From: Bacteroidia bacterium
GTDB lineage: Bacteria; Bacteroidota; Bacteroidia; AKYH767-A; OLB10
Assembly (NCBI GenBank): GCA_016788065.1
Contig: JAEUTI010000026.1
Coordinates: 66,290 to 130,289, forward strand
Length of the DNA stretch: 64,000 bases
Direction of reading: 5' to 3'
Shown piece after piece: positions 1 through 6,386 of the stretch. The notes below the pieces were generated by a model, which was given only the letters and a program-made list of their open reading frames with translations, did not search any database and was not told where the DNA came from. Made by a program: the position numbers and the translations under genes. Position 1 is the first letter of the stretch. Every line of letters begins with the position of its first letter.

Positions 1-2277
1 GCTCAAACTACAGGTTGGGTTTTTGGAACACTGGAAATGATTTTTCCAACTGGAATAAATTTAACAAAGACTTTCATGATTGGTGACAGTCTTCGCTATG
101 CTCCTGCAGTTTTAAATCCCGCAACAATTACGACGTCCGGTGCAGTAAATGCTAGAGTAACATCTGGTGATCATCCGTTAATATCGTCATCTACATTGAA
201 TTCAATCCGCAGTGTGAACAAATACTGGACATTCACCAATGCAGGAATGGTATTTAATAATTGTCGCATCACATTTAACTGGCAGGCAGCAGATATTGAT
301 CCCGGATCATCAACCGCTTTATTCAAAGTCTCCAGATATACATCGGTATGGGATACAATGGCAGTAACTGCACCTTTGGCAACTTCTATTCAGGCAACCG
401 GAATAACTGCCTTTGGTGCTTTTGCAGTAGGTGAACGTTGTCTGGCATCAGTAATAGGTACATGGACCGGAGGTGCAAGTACCGTGTGGGCAGATCCACT
501 TAACTGGCAATGTGGAATTTTACCAACAACAACAATTAATATTTTAGTGCCTACCGGATTACCCCGATATCCTCAACTCACTGTTGGTACCGGTTCTGTA
601 AGAAATGTTACCATTCAACCCGGAGCCTCTGTTACGGTGAGTGGAACAGGCATCCTTCAAATCAGCGGCACCATCACCAACACCGGAACATTCAATGTTA
701 CCAGTGGTGCCATTGAGCTAAATGGAACCACCACGCAAACAATTCCTGCGAATGTGTTTTCGGGAAATCAGATTATGAATCTTACAACCAACAATCCTGC
801 AGGAGTAAATCTTTCCGGAATTTTAAGTGTCAATGGAATTCTAAAAGCTAATGTCGGTAATTTTAATACCGGAACTTTCCTTACGCTGTTATCTACAGCC
901 ACACAAACTGCACTGATTGATGGGTCAGGTGCAGGGAATGTACTGGGTACTGTTAATATTCAACGGTATTTAACTTCCGGATATGGCTACAAATATGTTA
1001 GTTCACCGGTTGTAGCAGCAACTGTAAATGAGTTTTCAGATGATCTGAATCTGGCCGCTGCTTTCCCAACATTTTATCGATACATTGAGAATGTAAATTC
1101 ATCGGGATGGGATAGTTACACTGCAGCCGGAGGAGCGTTGGTACCATTCACAGGTTATGCAGCAAATTTTGGTAATTCAACAGCTCCTAAAACAATCGAT
1201 ATTGCAGGTGCTGTTGCTAATGGATTGAGGACTATCAATCTCCAAAATAATAATCAACCATTCACCAAAGGATTTAATTTGGTAGGGAATCCTTATCCTA
1301 GTCCCCTGAATTGGGATGCAGCAACCGGCTGGACAAAAACTAATATCGATAATGCGATTTATTATTTTGATGCCGGAGCACTGAACCAATATAGCGGAAC
1401 GTACAGCTCTTATATCAATGGTATTTCAAGTAATGGTGTAGCAGGAAATATCATTCCTGCCATGCAGGGATTTTTTGTGCATGTTACCAATGGTACTTTT
1501 CCTGTCAATGGAACACTTTCGGTGAATAATGCTGCACGTACAACAACATTGAATCCGTTCTACCACAGGGTTGCTTCAAACGAAGGCCGTTCGTTAATCC
1601 GGATGGAAGCGAAATATTCGGATGCAGGCAGTGTATGGGATGCCGTTACCATTTATTTTGATGATGGAGCAACTGCAGGTTTTAATATGGAGACTGATGC
1701 ATTGAAACTGATGAATACAGATGAGAATATTCCTAATATTTTTTCTCACGCTGCCGATAATGTTTTGTTATCGATTAATGCAATGCCCGGAACACCCGGT
1801 GAGGTTGCAGTGATTCCGGTAGGAGTAATCACCCAAAGAAACGGATGGCTGACTTTTAATGCATCTGAAATTCTGAATGTTGATGATAGTCTGAATGTTT
1901 ATTTTTATGATGCTGAGAAAAGAATGAATTATAATCTGCGCGATAAACCGGAATGTAAAATTTACCTCGACAAGGGAACATATAATTCAAGATTCAGCAT
2001 TCGTTTTTCAACGGAAGAATTACCTTTTGTCACCGACACCGATCAGTTTGGTGTATATGGCTATGGGAATATAACACATATTTATCATAAATTAAAGGAT
2101 GGTGAAACGGGTGAGCTGACTGTAACCAATATGCAGGGACAGCTATTGCATAAGGAATATCTGAAAGGTTCCGGATCAAAAGAAATAAGGCTGAATAACG
2201 GAGCAGGCATATATGTGGTAACGTTACGATCTTCTTCGGGAGTATTTTCGAAGAAATTATTTTTAAATGGCGAATGA
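1..2277 (+). CDS. T9SS-sorted secreted protein, 5' end outside the window
   Basis: The frame is open from base 1 through the ATG at 37, so the gene begins to the left of the window. The visible part is about 758 residues, rich in Thr, Asn and Gly, as in Bacteroidota extracellular beta-rich proteins. The last ~75 residues look like a T9SS type A sorting domain: a stretch on 'message' style wording (VTNMQGQLL), then GIYVVTLRS and a basic KKLF end. By family knowledge this domain directs export through the outer membrane and cell-surface attachment. Its stop overlaps the next start by 4 bases (ATGA), so it is probably co-transcribed with the DUF4402 and usher-like genes. The function of the body is not recognised. 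Confidence 0.8.
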   Translation, partial: AQTTGWVFGTLEMIFPTGINLTKTFMIGDSLRYAPAVLNPATITTSGAVNARVTSGDHPLISSSTLNSIRSVNKYWTFTNAGMVFNNCRITFNWQAADIDPGSSTALFKVSRYTSVWDTMAVTAPLATSIQATGITAFGAFAVGERCLASVIGTWTGGASTVWADPLNWQCGILPTTTINILVPTGLPRYPQLTVGTGSVRNVTIQPGASVTVSGTGILQISGTITNTGTFNVTSGAIELNGTTTQTIPANVFSGNQIMNLTTNNPAGVNLSGILSVNGILKANVGNFNTGTFLTLLSTATQTALIDGSGAGNVLGTVNIQRYLTSGYGYKYVSSPVVAATVNEFSDDLNLAAAFPTFYRYIENVNSSGWDSYTAAGGALVPFTGYAANFGNSTAPKTIDIAGAVANGLRTINLQNNNQPFTKGFNLVGNPYPSPLNWDAATGWTKTNIDNAIYYFDAGALNQYSGTYSSYINGISSNGVAGNIIPAMQGFFVHVTNGTFPVNGTLSVNNAARTTTLNPFYHRVASNEGRSLIRMEAKYSDAGSVWDAVTIYFDDGATAGFNMETDALKLMNTDENIPNIFSHAADNVLLSINAMPGTPGEVAVIPVGVITQRNGWLTFNASEILNVDDSLNVYFYDAEKRMNYNLRDKPECKIYLDKGTYNSRFSIRFSTEELPFVTDTDQFGVYGYGNITHIYHKLKDGETGELTVTNMQGQLLHKEYLKGSGSKEIRLNNGAGIYVVTLRSSSGVFSKKLFLNGE

Positions 2278-2804
2278 TGAAATTACAATGGAATATTGCA
2301 AAATCAGTTAAGCAGGTGCTATGCCTGTCGACTGTTGTAATATTCGGTTGTTTACCATTTTCACTCTCGGCACAGGAAGCACCTCCTAAACCAATTATCA
2401 TTTATGCTAATCCTGCGCAGGGACTCCATTTTGGAACTTTTACGCATGGCCCTTCAGGCGGAACCGTCATTATTTATCCCAATGGAACGCGTTCAGTTAC
2501 GGGATCTGTGGTACAGTTAAGTTCAGGTACACCATTCTCGCCAGCTATTTTTGAAGTAGAAGCAAATCTTGGTACCGTGGTAAGTATTCTCAACGGTCCT
2601 AATATTACCTTAACGGGAAGTAATGGTGGAAGTATGTTAATGCAGATAGGAGCTTCAAGTACCGGCTCGCCTTTTATCACCAATGTTGCTCCTCCCGGCC
2701 GCACACAGGTGCGCATTGGAGGTACTTTATTTGTTGGCAGTGCACTTGCTAATCCCGGAGGAAATTATAGTGGAACATTTATGGTGACTTTTATTCAGGA
2801 ATAG
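2274..2804 (+). CDS. DUF4402 domain secreted protein, possible fibre subunit
   Basis: A protein of 176 residues with a signal peptide (hydrophobic segment about 17-32, cut after LSAQ). The mature part has the DUF4402 pattern: LHFGTF near the start, the PNGTRSVTG turn, and the terminal VGGTL-like segment IGGTLFVG followed by GNYSGTFMVTF. The gene overlaps the preceding T9SS gene by four bases and lies 12 bases before the usher-like gene, so the three look like one operon. DUF4402 proteins are small beta-sandwich-like secreted proteins of unsettled function; in several phyla they sit near usher genes, which makes a role as a surface subunit plausible. That role is inferred. Confidence 0.8.
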   Translation: MMKLQWNIAKSVKQVLCLSTVVIFGCLPFSLSAQEAPPKPIIIYANPAQGLHFGTFTHGPSGGTVIIYPNGTRSVTGSVVQLSSGTPFSPAIFEVEANLGTVVSILNGPNITLTGSNGGSMLMQIGASSTGSPFITNVAPPGRTQVRIGGTLFVGSALANPGGNYSGTFMVTFIQE

Positions 2805-2816
2805 TCAGTTTACAAA

Positions 2817-5483
2817 ATGCGAATGATGTTTAAGGTAGTTACATTTCGGAATTATTACAGCTTGTCTGCAAAGATGCTGGCTCTGATTTGTACCCTGGTT
2901 TTTCAAATGACGTTTCCATCGAAAGCTTTAGCTGACATTAGTGATGATATAGATGAATTATCTGTAAATGTAAATGTGAAAGGTATCGGTAGCGCTGAAG
3001 TTCCTGCGTTATATTATGATGATGAACTTTACCTTTCTGTCATCGACGTTTTTCGCTTTCTCAAAATTAAAAGCACCTACAACGAAACGCTCGACTCCGT
3101 TGCCGGATATTTGTTGAATGAAGATGCAACTTACCTGATCAGTAAGCAACGAAATGTTATTGTTTATCAGGGTAAAGTGCAACCTCTCATGCAGCATGAC
3201 ATTATCAGATATGATGGCCGTTTATATCTCAGAAGAACCTACTTTGGAAGTGTATTCGGATTGCAATGTAATTTCAACTTTCGGAATTTGTCGGTTGTCC
3301 TAGATACCGATGTCGATTTGCCCGTCATCAAAGAGATGAGACAAGAGCTGATGCGTGCTAATGTTTCGAAACTCCAGGGCGAGACTGTTGCAGATACTAC
3401 TATTGAAAGGAATTTTCCAGCTGCAGGTTTAAGTATGGCAGATTGGTTAGTCATAAATTCACATGATTTGGAAGGTAATCATGATTTAAGGTTAGGACTC
3501 GGCTTAGGCGGTGTGCTTTTGGGTGGTGAAACAAATTTGAATCTAAATTATTATTCTGCCACCGGCCTGGAACCAAGACAACAATTTTATCAATGGCGCC
3601 ATGTGCGTAATGAGCGAAATTATTTGCGACAGGTTATTTTAGGAAAAGTACAGCCACAATTCGTTTCATCTGTTTATGCACCTGCAATCGGATTTCAACT
3701 GACCAATACAGCCACTACCTTCAAGCGTTCTTTCGGATCTTATACTATCAGCAACACTACCAATCCGGGATGGATTGTGGAACTTTATGTAAATAATGTA
3801 TTAGTCAATTATGTAAAGGCAGATGCTTCCGGCTTTTACACATTTCAGGTTCCGCTGGTGTATGGTAATTCTGTTGTTAAACTTCGTTTTTATGGCCCTT
3901 ACGGGGAAGAAAGGGCTGCAGAAGAATATATCAACATCCCATTCAATTTTATGCCTTCAGGAAAATTGGAATACAATGTAAGTGGCGGGATAATTGAAGA
4001 TGGATTTCACAGTTTTAATGTGAAGTCGGTTTATGGTGATTCCGTTGTAAATACCCGCATTGAAGGACAAAAAAACAGTTTGTTTTCACGTGCACGGATC
4101 GATTATGGTTTAAATCCTTATATTACAATTGGAGGCGGAGCGGAATACCTTTCTTCTGTTTCTACAGGCACGGCTATGCCATTTGTCAGCGCATCTATCA
4201 GATTGACGCCATTGTTGCTTTTAACAACTGATTATACCGATAAAGTACTTAGTAAAAGTGTTTTGTCATATAGTTTGCCATCCGGATGGCAATTCGAGGT
4301 GAATTATTTGAATTACGACAAGAATCAGGAAGCAATACGATTCGATTATCTCGAACAGCGTAAAGCAATGGTATCTTTTCCTGTGCGGACAAAATGGCTA
4401 ACTGCCTATTCACGGATTGCATTCAATCAGATTGTATTGGATAACACCGATTATATAACAACAGAATGGTTGTTGTCGGGTGCTTTACGAAAAGTGAATT
4501 ATAATATCAGCAGCTATGCTTTGTTGGTGAAAGATACAGATCCTTTTATTTACAGTAACTTTTCGTTCAGTTTTCATCCGGTAAAGAAGATCATAATTAC
4601 TCCTCAATTGCAGTATGAGTATACAAAAAGTAATATAGTATCTATGAGATGTCTTGTAGAAAAAACATTAAAGGGTTTTGGCGTAGTGAATGCATATTAT
4701 GAAGAAAATGTGCAGAGCAATATCAGGACAGTAGGTGTGGGTTTACGGATGGATCTTTCCTTTGCACAAGTGGGATTCCAGGCTATTCGTGGTAACCGGA
4801 CTACAAATTTTACTGAAACAGCAAACGGTGGTATTGTTTATAATTCCGGACTAAATCATTTCAATGTTTCAAACCGGAATAGCATGGGAAAGGGTGGCAT
4901 CACACTCATTCCATTTGTCGATTTGGATGGAAATGGAATCAAAGGAGATGATGAACCTAAAGCAGAAGGTTTAAAAGTGAGTATCAATGGTGGCAGAATG
5001 ATGTATGTTGAAAAAGATACTGCCATTCAGATTTTCGAACTGGAACCTTATACGGCTTACCATGTCAAGTTGCAACCTTCAAGCTTCGACAATATTGCAT
5101 GGACGGTGAAAAACAAAGTGATTAAGGTTATCGTTGATCCAAATAGTATGAAACCGGTTTTTGTGCCTGTTGATGTTTCAGCAGAGGTATCGGGCCAGGT
5201 AATGCTGGAGGAAAATGCAACTTCCCGTGGATTGGGTAAGATAACAGTCCGGATATATGATGAGCAAATGCAACTGGTAGGTAAAACGCTTTCTGAATCG
5301 GATGGGTATTTTCGTTTTTCAGGACTTAAACCCGGAAATTATCGTGTTCAGTTAGATCCGCTTCAGCTAACGAAGCTTGAATTGATCAGTACCCCTGATC
5401 TGTTACCTGTCACTATAAAAAAACTCACGGCCGGAGATTATATTGATGGACTTATTTTTAAAGTTCAGAAAATGGACCGTTAG
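2817..5483 (+). CDS. Outer-membrane usher-like protein
   Basis: A protein of 888 residues. A signal peptide lies around residues 17-40 (ending SKALA). The N-terminal ~180 residues contain a short repeated beta domain (LYYDDELYLSVIDVF, then IIRYDGRLYLRRTYF). Residues about 190-680 alternate like a beta-barrel. Within it, residues about 317-370 carry the signature I associate with the usher plug region: WIVELYVNN, then DASGFYTFQVPL, then VVKLRFYGPYGEE. After the barrel come an SdrD-B-like domain (VDLDGNGIKGDDEP, about 695) and a carboxypeptidase-regulatory-like domain (SDGYFRFSGLKPGNYRV, about 830). Ushers pore-translocate and assemble pilus subunits. The DUF4402 genes on both sides are candidate subunits. 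No PapD-like chaperone is seen here. The usher call is by motif only. Confidence 0.7.
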   Translation: MRMMFKVVTFRNYYSLSAKMLALICTLVFQMTFPSKALADISDDIDELSVNVNVKGIGSAEVPALYYDDELYLSVIDVFRFLKIKSTYNETLDSVAGYLLNEDATYLISKQRNVIVYQGKVQPLMQHDIIRYDGRLYLRRTYFGSVFGLQCNFNFRNLSVVLDTDVDLPVIKEMRQELMRANVSKLQGETVADTTIERNFPAAGLSMADWLVINSHDLEGNHDLRLGLGLGGVLLGGETNLNLNYYSATGLEPRQQFYQWRHVRNERNYLRQVILGKVQPQFVSSVYAPAIGFQLTNTATTFKRSFGSYTISNTTNPGWIVELYVNNVLVNYVKADASGFYTFQVPLVYGNSVVKLRFYGPYGEERAAEEYINIPFNFMPSGKLEYNVSGGIIEDGFHSFNVKSVYGDSVVNTRIEGQKNSLFSRARIDYGLNPYITIGGGAEYLSSVSTGTAMPFVSASIRLTPLLLLTTDYTDKVLSKSVLSYSLPSGWQFEVNYLNYDKNQEAIRFDYLEQRKAMVSFPVRTKWLTAYSRIAFNQIVLDNTDYITTEWLLSGALRKVNYNISSYALLVKDTDPFIYSNFSFSFHPVKKIIITPQLQYEYTKSNIVSMRCLVEKTLKGFGVVNAYYEENVQSNIRTVGVGLRMDLSFAQVGFQAIRGNRTTNFTETANGGIVYNSGLNHFNVSNRNSMGKGGITLIPFVDLDGNGIKGDDEPKAEGLKVSINGGRMMYVEKDTAIQIFELEPYTAYHVKLQPSSFDNIAWTVKNKVIKVIVDPNSMKPVFVPVDVSAEVSGQVMLEENATSRGLGKITVRIYDEQMQLVGKTLSESDGYFRFSGLKPGNYRVQLDPLQLTKLELISTPDLLPVTIKKLTAGDYIDGLIFKVQKMDR

Positions 5484-5485
5484 AA

Positions 5486-5670
5486 AAGACGTATTAACAT
5501 GCGTCTCTACAGCATGAATAAGTGTCTTACACAACAAGTAAAGACCCATGATAAAGCTGTAAAGACCCATGATAATGCTTCTTGTGCAAGCTACAAAGGC
5601 CCATGACAATACGTCTTAGCCTTGTTGCTATGTTGCATGTTAATGCATTAAAGACGCAAGATATTGCGTC
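5486..5670. repeat. Cluster of short direct and inverted repeats between convergent genes
   Basis: The 16-base direct repeat TAAAGACCCATGATAA occurs at 5539-5554 and 5560-5575, with a diverged copy at 5594-5609. A 10-base inverted pair (AAGACGTATT at 5486-5495, AATACGTCTT at 5608-5617) brackets them. A further palindrome, GACGCAAGATATTGCGTC, lies at 5653-5670. Such AGACG/CGTCT palindromes are often dispersed repeats in Bacteroidota intergenic DNA. Confidence 0.6.
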
Positions 5671-5677
5671 TAACAAA

Positions 5678-5708
5678 AAAAGCGCGCTGCAGTAAGCAGC
5701 GCGCTTTT
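5678..5708. terminator. Bidirectional rho-independent terminator
   Basis: Perfect 13-base stem AAAAGCGCGCTGC / GCAGCGCGCTTTT with a 5-base loop (AGTAA). A-run and T-run on both sides let it serve both the usher-like gene (plus strand) and the convergent DUF4402 gene (minus strand). Confidence 0.85.
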
Positions 5709-5724
5709 AAGTATGTGATGTAAA

Positions 5725-6234
5725 TTAGTTATAATTTACAGTTACATCAAATGGAGTACCTGATGTATAGACACCAGATGCTTGTGATGCACCTACGTTC
5801 AGAGTAGCACCAACTGTAACAGTTTGAGCACCTAATGCACTCAAAGTACCTGTAGCAGCCGGAGTGCTAGTGAATGCATTTACAGTCATGTTGTTTGCAC
5901 CACTTGAAATGGTAACAGACGCAGGCAATGTAATTGCATAAGTGTAGTTAGCTTCTCCTGCAACATCAAATGAAGCAGCTGCTACAGTTCCTGCAGTAGC
6001 TGGAAGAGATACACCACCAGTTGTTGAACGAACACCTGCTGGAGAAATTACAACCGTACCGGCAGTTCCTGATGCACCTACGTTACCGAAGTTGAGGTCA
6101 ACAGTTTTTGTGATACTGATTGGAGTTACGATGGTTGCTGAAGCTGAAGCTGAAGCTGTAGCCTGGGCATTAACCTGTGTGCTGAATCCGATAGCAACAA
6201 TCGCAAGGGCAAATACTTTTGTGATGTGTTTCAT
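5725..6234 (-). CDS. DUF4402 domain secreted protein
   Basis: A protein of 169 residues with a signal peptide (residues 1-23, ending VNAQ) followed by an Ala/Ser/Thr-rich stretch. It shares the DUF4402 layout with the protein at 2274-2804: LNFGNVG, then ISPAGVRSTTGG, then the end VGATLNVG, ASGVYTSGTPFDVTVNYN. It is compact, very low in charged residues and has its own terminator and promoter, as expected of an abundant secreted structural protein. It converges on the usher-like gene. It may be a second, separately controlled subunit of the same fibre; that is inference. Confidence 0.85.
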   Translation of the reverse strand: MKHITKVFALAIVAIGFSTQVNAQATASASASATIVTPISITKTVDLNFGNVGASGTAGTVVISPAGVRSTTGGVSLPATAGTVAAASFDVAGEANYTYAITLPASVTISSGANNMTVNAFTSTPAATGTLSALGAQTVTVGATLNVGASQASGVYTSGTPFDVTVNYN

Positions 6235-6357: not shown

Positions 6358-6386
6358 CAAACATAGACTTTTGTCGTAAAAAACAA
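6358..6386 (-). promoter_or_regulatory. Candidate Bacteroidota promoter for the DUF4402 gene
   Basis: Read on the minus strand: TTG (6386-6384), 18 bases, then TATGTTTG (6365-6358), a full match to the TAnnTTTG -7 element. It lies about 125 bases upstream of the DUF4402 start, giving a long leader. Confidence 0.4.

Follow-up and report, generated by a model that had tools for sequence, protein, structure and literature searches.

Chaperone-usher machines build hair-like surface fibres in bacteria such as Escherichia coli, and their classical pilins carry a glycine at position -14 and an aromatic residue at position -2 from the C terminus. The fimbriae of Bacteroidota, on the other hand, are usually treated as type V pili, which depend on lipoprotein export and protease-triggered strand exchange and use neither an usher nor a chaperone. 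The archaic family of chaperone-usher systems has been listed in Proteobacteria, Cyanobacteria, and Deinococcus-Thermus, not in Bacteroidota (PMC4654587). Literature searches for DUF4402, for ushers in Bacteroidota, and for FliG combined with usher returned nothing on the system described here, with subscription papers and preprints mostly outside their scope. We analyzed a stretch of 64,000 nucleotides of Bacteroidota DNA (the window; contig C15:66290-130289) and consider it highly probable, from sequence comparison, that the locus at its left end encodes a divergent Bacteroidota chaperone-usher fibre system.

The open reading frames observed at this end of the window were those that an earlier note on the same DNA had described. 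On the forward strand, the end of a gene for a T9SS-sorted protein (positions 1 to 2277, the last 758 codons) overlaps by 4 bases a gene for a DUF4402 protein of 176 residues (DUF4402 #1, a putative pilin; 2274 to 2804), which is followed after 12 bp by the gene for an 888-residue protein (2817 to 5483). A second gene for a DUF4402 protein, of 169 residues (DUF4402 #2, the putative major pilin; 5725 to 6234, reverse strand), converges on these as a separate unit. The T9SS-sorted protein is longer than the window shows, with 1327 residues and a start near window position -1706. A gene for a PapD-like chaperone of 297 residues was found outside the window on the forward strand (approximately window positions -2624 to -1731; C15:63665-64558; L001:9666-10559), and because its reading frame ends 24 bp ahead of the gene for the 1327-residue protein, the operon order is chaperone, T9SS cargo, DUF4402 #1, usher, and DUF4402 #2 converges on it from beyond a terminator-like palindrome. 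The criterion of the chaperone-usher pathway that its genes lie in one operon is met, with the exception that one pilin gene in the window stands apart in convergent orientation. The same set is syntenic in KLAP29, a metagenome-assembled genome of the same genus, whose contig stops inside the usher gene.

The palindrome, a G+C-rich inverted repeat of 13 pairs with a T-run (5678 to 5708; L001 17968-17998), was recognized by consensus match only and is likely a terminator common to both convergent units. A possible Bacteroidota-type promoter for DUF4402 #2, TTG-N18-TATGTTTG (6358 to 6386, reverse strand), is merely suggestive and is proposed by position only; a scan for such promoters found three in the region against 2.25 expected, which is the chance level. 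Short imperfect repeats (AAAGACCCATGATAA-like and GACGCAAGATATTGCGTC) lie between the usher and the convergent pilin genes (5535 to 5680). Left of the window, L001:2094-3824 encodes a protein of the Porphyromonas-type peptidyl-arginine deiminase family with a T9SS sorting domain.

The comparison of the 888-residue protein with the Usher family (PF00577; curated cut-off, 27.1) that the earlier note had proposed gave no match, either for the protein or for its own genome, and none of 345 genomes across the phylum passed the cut-off (four weak matches). By threshold, the protein is not a member of PF00577. As a single sequence it also did not match a profile of E. coli ushers; only its family profile did. 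Relatives were gathered from class and phylum genomes and compared profile against profile. The initial family profile aligned with eight E. coli K-12 ushers at 97.3% probability (E 1.9e-11; 584 columns), and with 47 relatives included the match rose to 99.3% (E 1.4e-20; 675 columns; FimD residues 72 to 822). The alignment covers both the plug region and a C-terminal "Y..N.V.LD...L" stretch. Controls (FhuA, LptD, BamA, FepA, Bacteroidota TonB-type barrels, and reversed and shuffled columns) did not exceed 4.3%, with the one exception of a TonB-type barrel alignment, which was matched locally at 18% through the C-terminal domain alone. In the absence of a convincing control match, these alignments bear out the usher identity proposed in the earlier note, and it is well supported that the 888-residue protein represents a true, very divergent usher, although its fold has not been shown.

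The plug-like signature that the earlier note had pointed out (WIVELYVNN...DASGFYTF...LRFYGPYGEE) aligns with the central part of the E. coli ushers, the location of their plug. An AlphaFold model of the usher (two near-identical rows in the alignment) reached a pLDDT of 29, too poor for a fold search, and because the model was unusable, the barrel and plug are inferred. The proposal that extra SdrD-B and carboxypeptidase-regulatory-like domains are fused to the usher was not sustained. The only Pfam matches, SdrD_B and CarboxypepD_reg, both fall on residues 791 to 846 and so represent one domain rather than two, and this region aligns with the C-terminal domains of the E. coli ushers. The window protein matches FimD in length (888 versus 878 residues). 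The CarboxypepD-like stretch is therefore best taken to be a C-terminal domain belonging to the usher itself, and the extra fused domains were rejected. The window usher has no SPOR or TPR tail domains. In many relatives, SPOR (peptidoglycan-binding) domains or TPR-like repeats were seen after the usher C-terminal domains (L050, L052, L078, L079, and L081; L053 to L057 and L080).

The earlier note had suggested that a chaperone gene might lie left of the window, and the PapD-like gene found there, 1.7 kb from the window edge and ahead of the cargo gene, answers to this suggestion. Its product has a signal peptide and shows PapD-like features in the pattern "...ITPRRVVFEGSKKIQELNLANIGKD...FFPRSVILAPNESQLMKVQL...GEYRSHIYF". 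The chaperone family profile matched 10 E. coli chaperones at 95.4% (E 1.7e-8) and, once 45 relatives were included, at 96.9% (E 1.6e-10). Three residues (Pro109, Asn65, and a basic one at position 123) were invariant in 44 of 44 relatives and in all 10 E. coli chaperones. The proline is the sole invariant residue of the chaperone superfamily, and an arginine is typical of archaic and alternative chaperones (PMC4654587). In the window chaperone, an arginine (EYR) occupies the column of the YYR of EcpB; in other branches, its position is shifted. The window chaperone had no Pfam match over the cut-off, with PapD_N (PF00345) unmatched, and no NCBIfam match, and by threshold it is not a PapD_N member; the chaperone of one relative did reach PapD_N (E 7.3e-5). 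Profile searches of the PDB that started from the initial alignments of usher, chaperone, and pilin returned no usher or pilus subunit, and FimC was the sole match of the chaperone profile (E 0.46). Near divergent ushers at three loci (L140, L151, and L153), chaperone-like sequence apparently lies inside very large proteins (2246, 1002, and 1169 residues, respectively).

Both DUF4402 proteins of the window were assigned by Pfam above the cut-off (1.4e-19 and 3e-32), and the whole genome encodes no others. Signal peptides were seen on both, as on the chaperone; those of the DUF4402 proteins lack a lipobox cysteine. At the C terminus, DUF4402 #1 has a glycine at -14 without a tyrosine at -2, and DUF4402 #2 has a tyrosine at -2 with the glycine at -16. 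The combination of tyrosine or phenylalanine at -2 and glycine at -14 was present in 61 of 109 DUF4402 relatives versus 3 of 211 background reading frames of similar size. A profile comparison of the DUF4402 families with E. coli pilins gave 29% at first and 88.9% once the 109 relatives were included, mostly through the C-terminal 33 columns. No match of the pilin profile lay more than 6 kb from an usher or chaperone; since the profile was iterated solely on usher loci, its distant members are less certain. By score, DUF4402 #2 groups with the DUF4402 gene found ahead of the chaperone in three relatives, and DUF4402 #1 with the usher-adjacent gene in two of these three, so a conserved two-pilin set is likely. 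We regard it as likely from these comparisons that the DUF4402 proteins are the putative pilins of the system. Their fold is unresolved and inferred; an AlphaFold model (three rows) reached a pLDDT of only 40, too poor for a fold search. No two-domain tip adhesin was recognized, and both window pilins lack cysteine in their mature part; among 109 relatives, 13 have at least two cysteines. L141 and L156 have, in addition to the DUF4402-like genes ahead of the chaperone, one more behind the usher. In a close relative, L052:6855-12407, next to the pilin gene, encodes a divergent repeat protein of more than 1851 residues, cut by the contig end, which is a possible adhesin.

The 1327-residue protein satisfies both criteria for a T9SS cargo, namely a type A sorting domain (TIGR04183; 27.4 bits against a curated cut-off of 23) and a T9SS in the genome, which encodes the translocon protein SprA. 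T9SS-type proteins come first in the operon at L053 and L057 (over the cut-off) and, weakly, at L055. Large proteins whose C-terminal ends look similar by eye are encoded ahead of the pilins at L123, L124, L129, L135, and L137. The link between a T9SS cargo and the usher operon recurs; its meaning is unknown.

The pairing of usher and DUF4402 genes was observed repeatedly in Bacteroidota, as the earlier note had asked of related genomes; the lack of such pairing, which the note had named as a refutation, is clearly not the case. Independent searches of 395 class genomes, with thresholds of E below 1e-40 for ushers and more than 50 bits for DUF4402, picked out the identical four genomes and no others, each with two DUF4402 genes beside the usher; the odds of this coincidence are about one in a billion if the two occur independently and kinship is ignored. 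Across the phylum, the usher profile matched 74 of 335 genomes at 1e-10 (about a fifth), distributed over 30 of 153 genera, and 48 of 335 at E ≤ 1e-100. Forty-nine usher loci were read, with a chaperone gene in 47 and DUF4402-related genes in 38; the typical order was one to four pilins, then chaperone, then usher. The tree, which like the comparisons included no archaic ushers from Proteobacteria, grouped the window usher with L050, L133, and L052 in a clade that had full support.

If the locus works as a chaperone-usher system, the DUF4402 pilins and the chaperone would be exported by Sec, and the PapD-like chaperone would cap each incomplete Ig-like pilin in the periplasm through strand donation. 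The usher, a predicted outer-membrane barrel with an internal plug, would receive the chaperone-pilin complexes; there, the N-terminal extension of the next pilin would replace the chaperone strand, and the fibre would grow onto the cell surface. What the sequences show directly is the genes, their order, their family relations, and their recurrence. The fold, the donor-strand exchange, and the fibre itself are all inferred, as are the roles of the two pilins and the cargo: DUF4402 #2 is probably the major subunit, DUF4402 #1, adjoining the usher, probably the tip or initiating subunit, and the cargo, which would come from the operon transcript but leave the cell through the T9SS, probably a surface adhesin that acts together with the fibre.

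It remains conceivable, if rather unlikely, that an usher homologue has been repurposed to export or anchor a short DUF4402 coat resembling spore coat protein U, or to serve the T9SS cargo, without an extended fibre. The presence of only two pilin genes and no recognizable two-domain tip adhesin would fit such a role, as would the cargo gene within the operon and the SPOR or TPR domains on the ushers of relatives. However, all three parts of a fibre machine have been kept together in 38 of 49 loci, and as many as four pilin genes occur at one locus, together with the pilin C-terminal signature. A further possibility is that the 888-residue protein has no relation to ushers and belongs to the TonB-dependent or other porin-like barrels, with a CarboxypepD_reg domain, and that the DUF4402 proteins are ordinary surface proteins. 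CarboxypepD_reg is frequent in Bacteroidota barrels, Pfam found nothing on this protein except SdrD_B and CarboxypepD_reg, and the 18% match was to a TonB-type barrel alignment. That match, however, is limited to the C-terminal domain, the other barrel controls reached 0.1 to 4.3% against 97 to 99% for ushers, and the CarboxypepD-like domain is C-terminal rather than N-terminal. A TonB-type identity was rejected, and we hold this explanation to be very improbable.

Type V (Mfa1/FimA) pili, the known fimbriae of the phylum, were also considered, given that the phylum is identical and the genes would likewise concern a surface fibre. Pfam scans of the window proteins found no fimbrillin family, though, the DUF4402 signal peptides are without a lipobox cysteine, and the locus has both an usher and a PapD-like chaperone; on these grounds type V pili were rejected, and we give them almost no credence. 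Judged by the relatedness of its parts and by its gene order, the locus counts as a divergent Bacteroidota chaperone-usher system, which is the preferred explanation.

Compared with the chaperone-usher systems of Proteobacteria (FimC-FimD, EcpB-EcpC, and the archaic CsuC-CsuD), the Bacteroidota system shares the PapD-like chaperone, the operon arrangement, and usher homology in the plug region and C-terminal domain; its putative pilins are likewise small, and many of their relatives have the C-terminal Gly-14/Tyr-2 signature. It differs in that profile identity is only about 12 to 15%, its parts fall below the Pfam and NCBIfam thresholds, its putative pilins are of the DUF4402 type, a T9SS cargo lies in the operon, and SPOR/TPR tails and flagellar-motor-like genes occur in some relatives. 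The archaic (sigma) family resembles the window system in the chaperone arginine at the EcpB "YYR" position, but the window pilins lack the invariant archaic cysteines, and by this measure the system is not archaic. Collectively, an usher family that is invisible to Pfam and NCBIfam and yet strong in 48 of 335 genomes would carry the chaperone-usher pathway into another phylum, supply a likely role for DUF4402, and provide a divergent outgroup for tracing how ushers arose.

In many loci of relatives, a fusion protein of approximately 620 to 700 residues resembling FliF and FliG is encoded directly behind the usher; it adjoins the usher in about 15 of 335 phylum genomes and in four class-sample genomes. 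Pfam identified FliG domains in the fusion of L080 (FliG_M, 7.6e-13; FliG_C, 6e-6), and the fusion profile matched E. coli FliG at 96.6% and solved FliG structures at E 3e-15. A stretch resembling the FliF ring motif was matched weakly (58%). Genes for a TPR protein and for MotA_ExbB and MotB_plug/OmpA proteins come after the fusion. Both MotA and MotB were typed by Pfam in L080 (phylum) and L057 (class), and MotA in L053 (class); at other loci, the motor genes were assigned from gene size and position. These relatives resemble the flagellar rotor-stator in the FliG profile and the MotA and MotB/OmpA domains, but their FliF-like part is only weakly matched and fused to FliG in one protein of about 650 residues, and the genes belong to an usher operon instead of a flagellar one. 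We can only tentatively suggest that in part of the usher family a flagellar-type motor (FliF/FliG-like, MotA, MotB, and TPR lipoprotein) drives, rotates, or pulls the usher fibre or powers its assembly, as a motorised pilus. If the motor genes do act on the fibre, an usher system would be coupled to an ion-driven motor, for which we know of no precedent. The window genome had no FliF/FliG-like match, and its system would then be a motor-free branch of the same usher family. The fusion, followed where the contig continues by TPR (lipo)protein, MotA-like, and MotB/OmpA-like genes, was seen at L053, L055, L056, L057, L080, L122 to L124, L127, L131, L132, L142, and L159.
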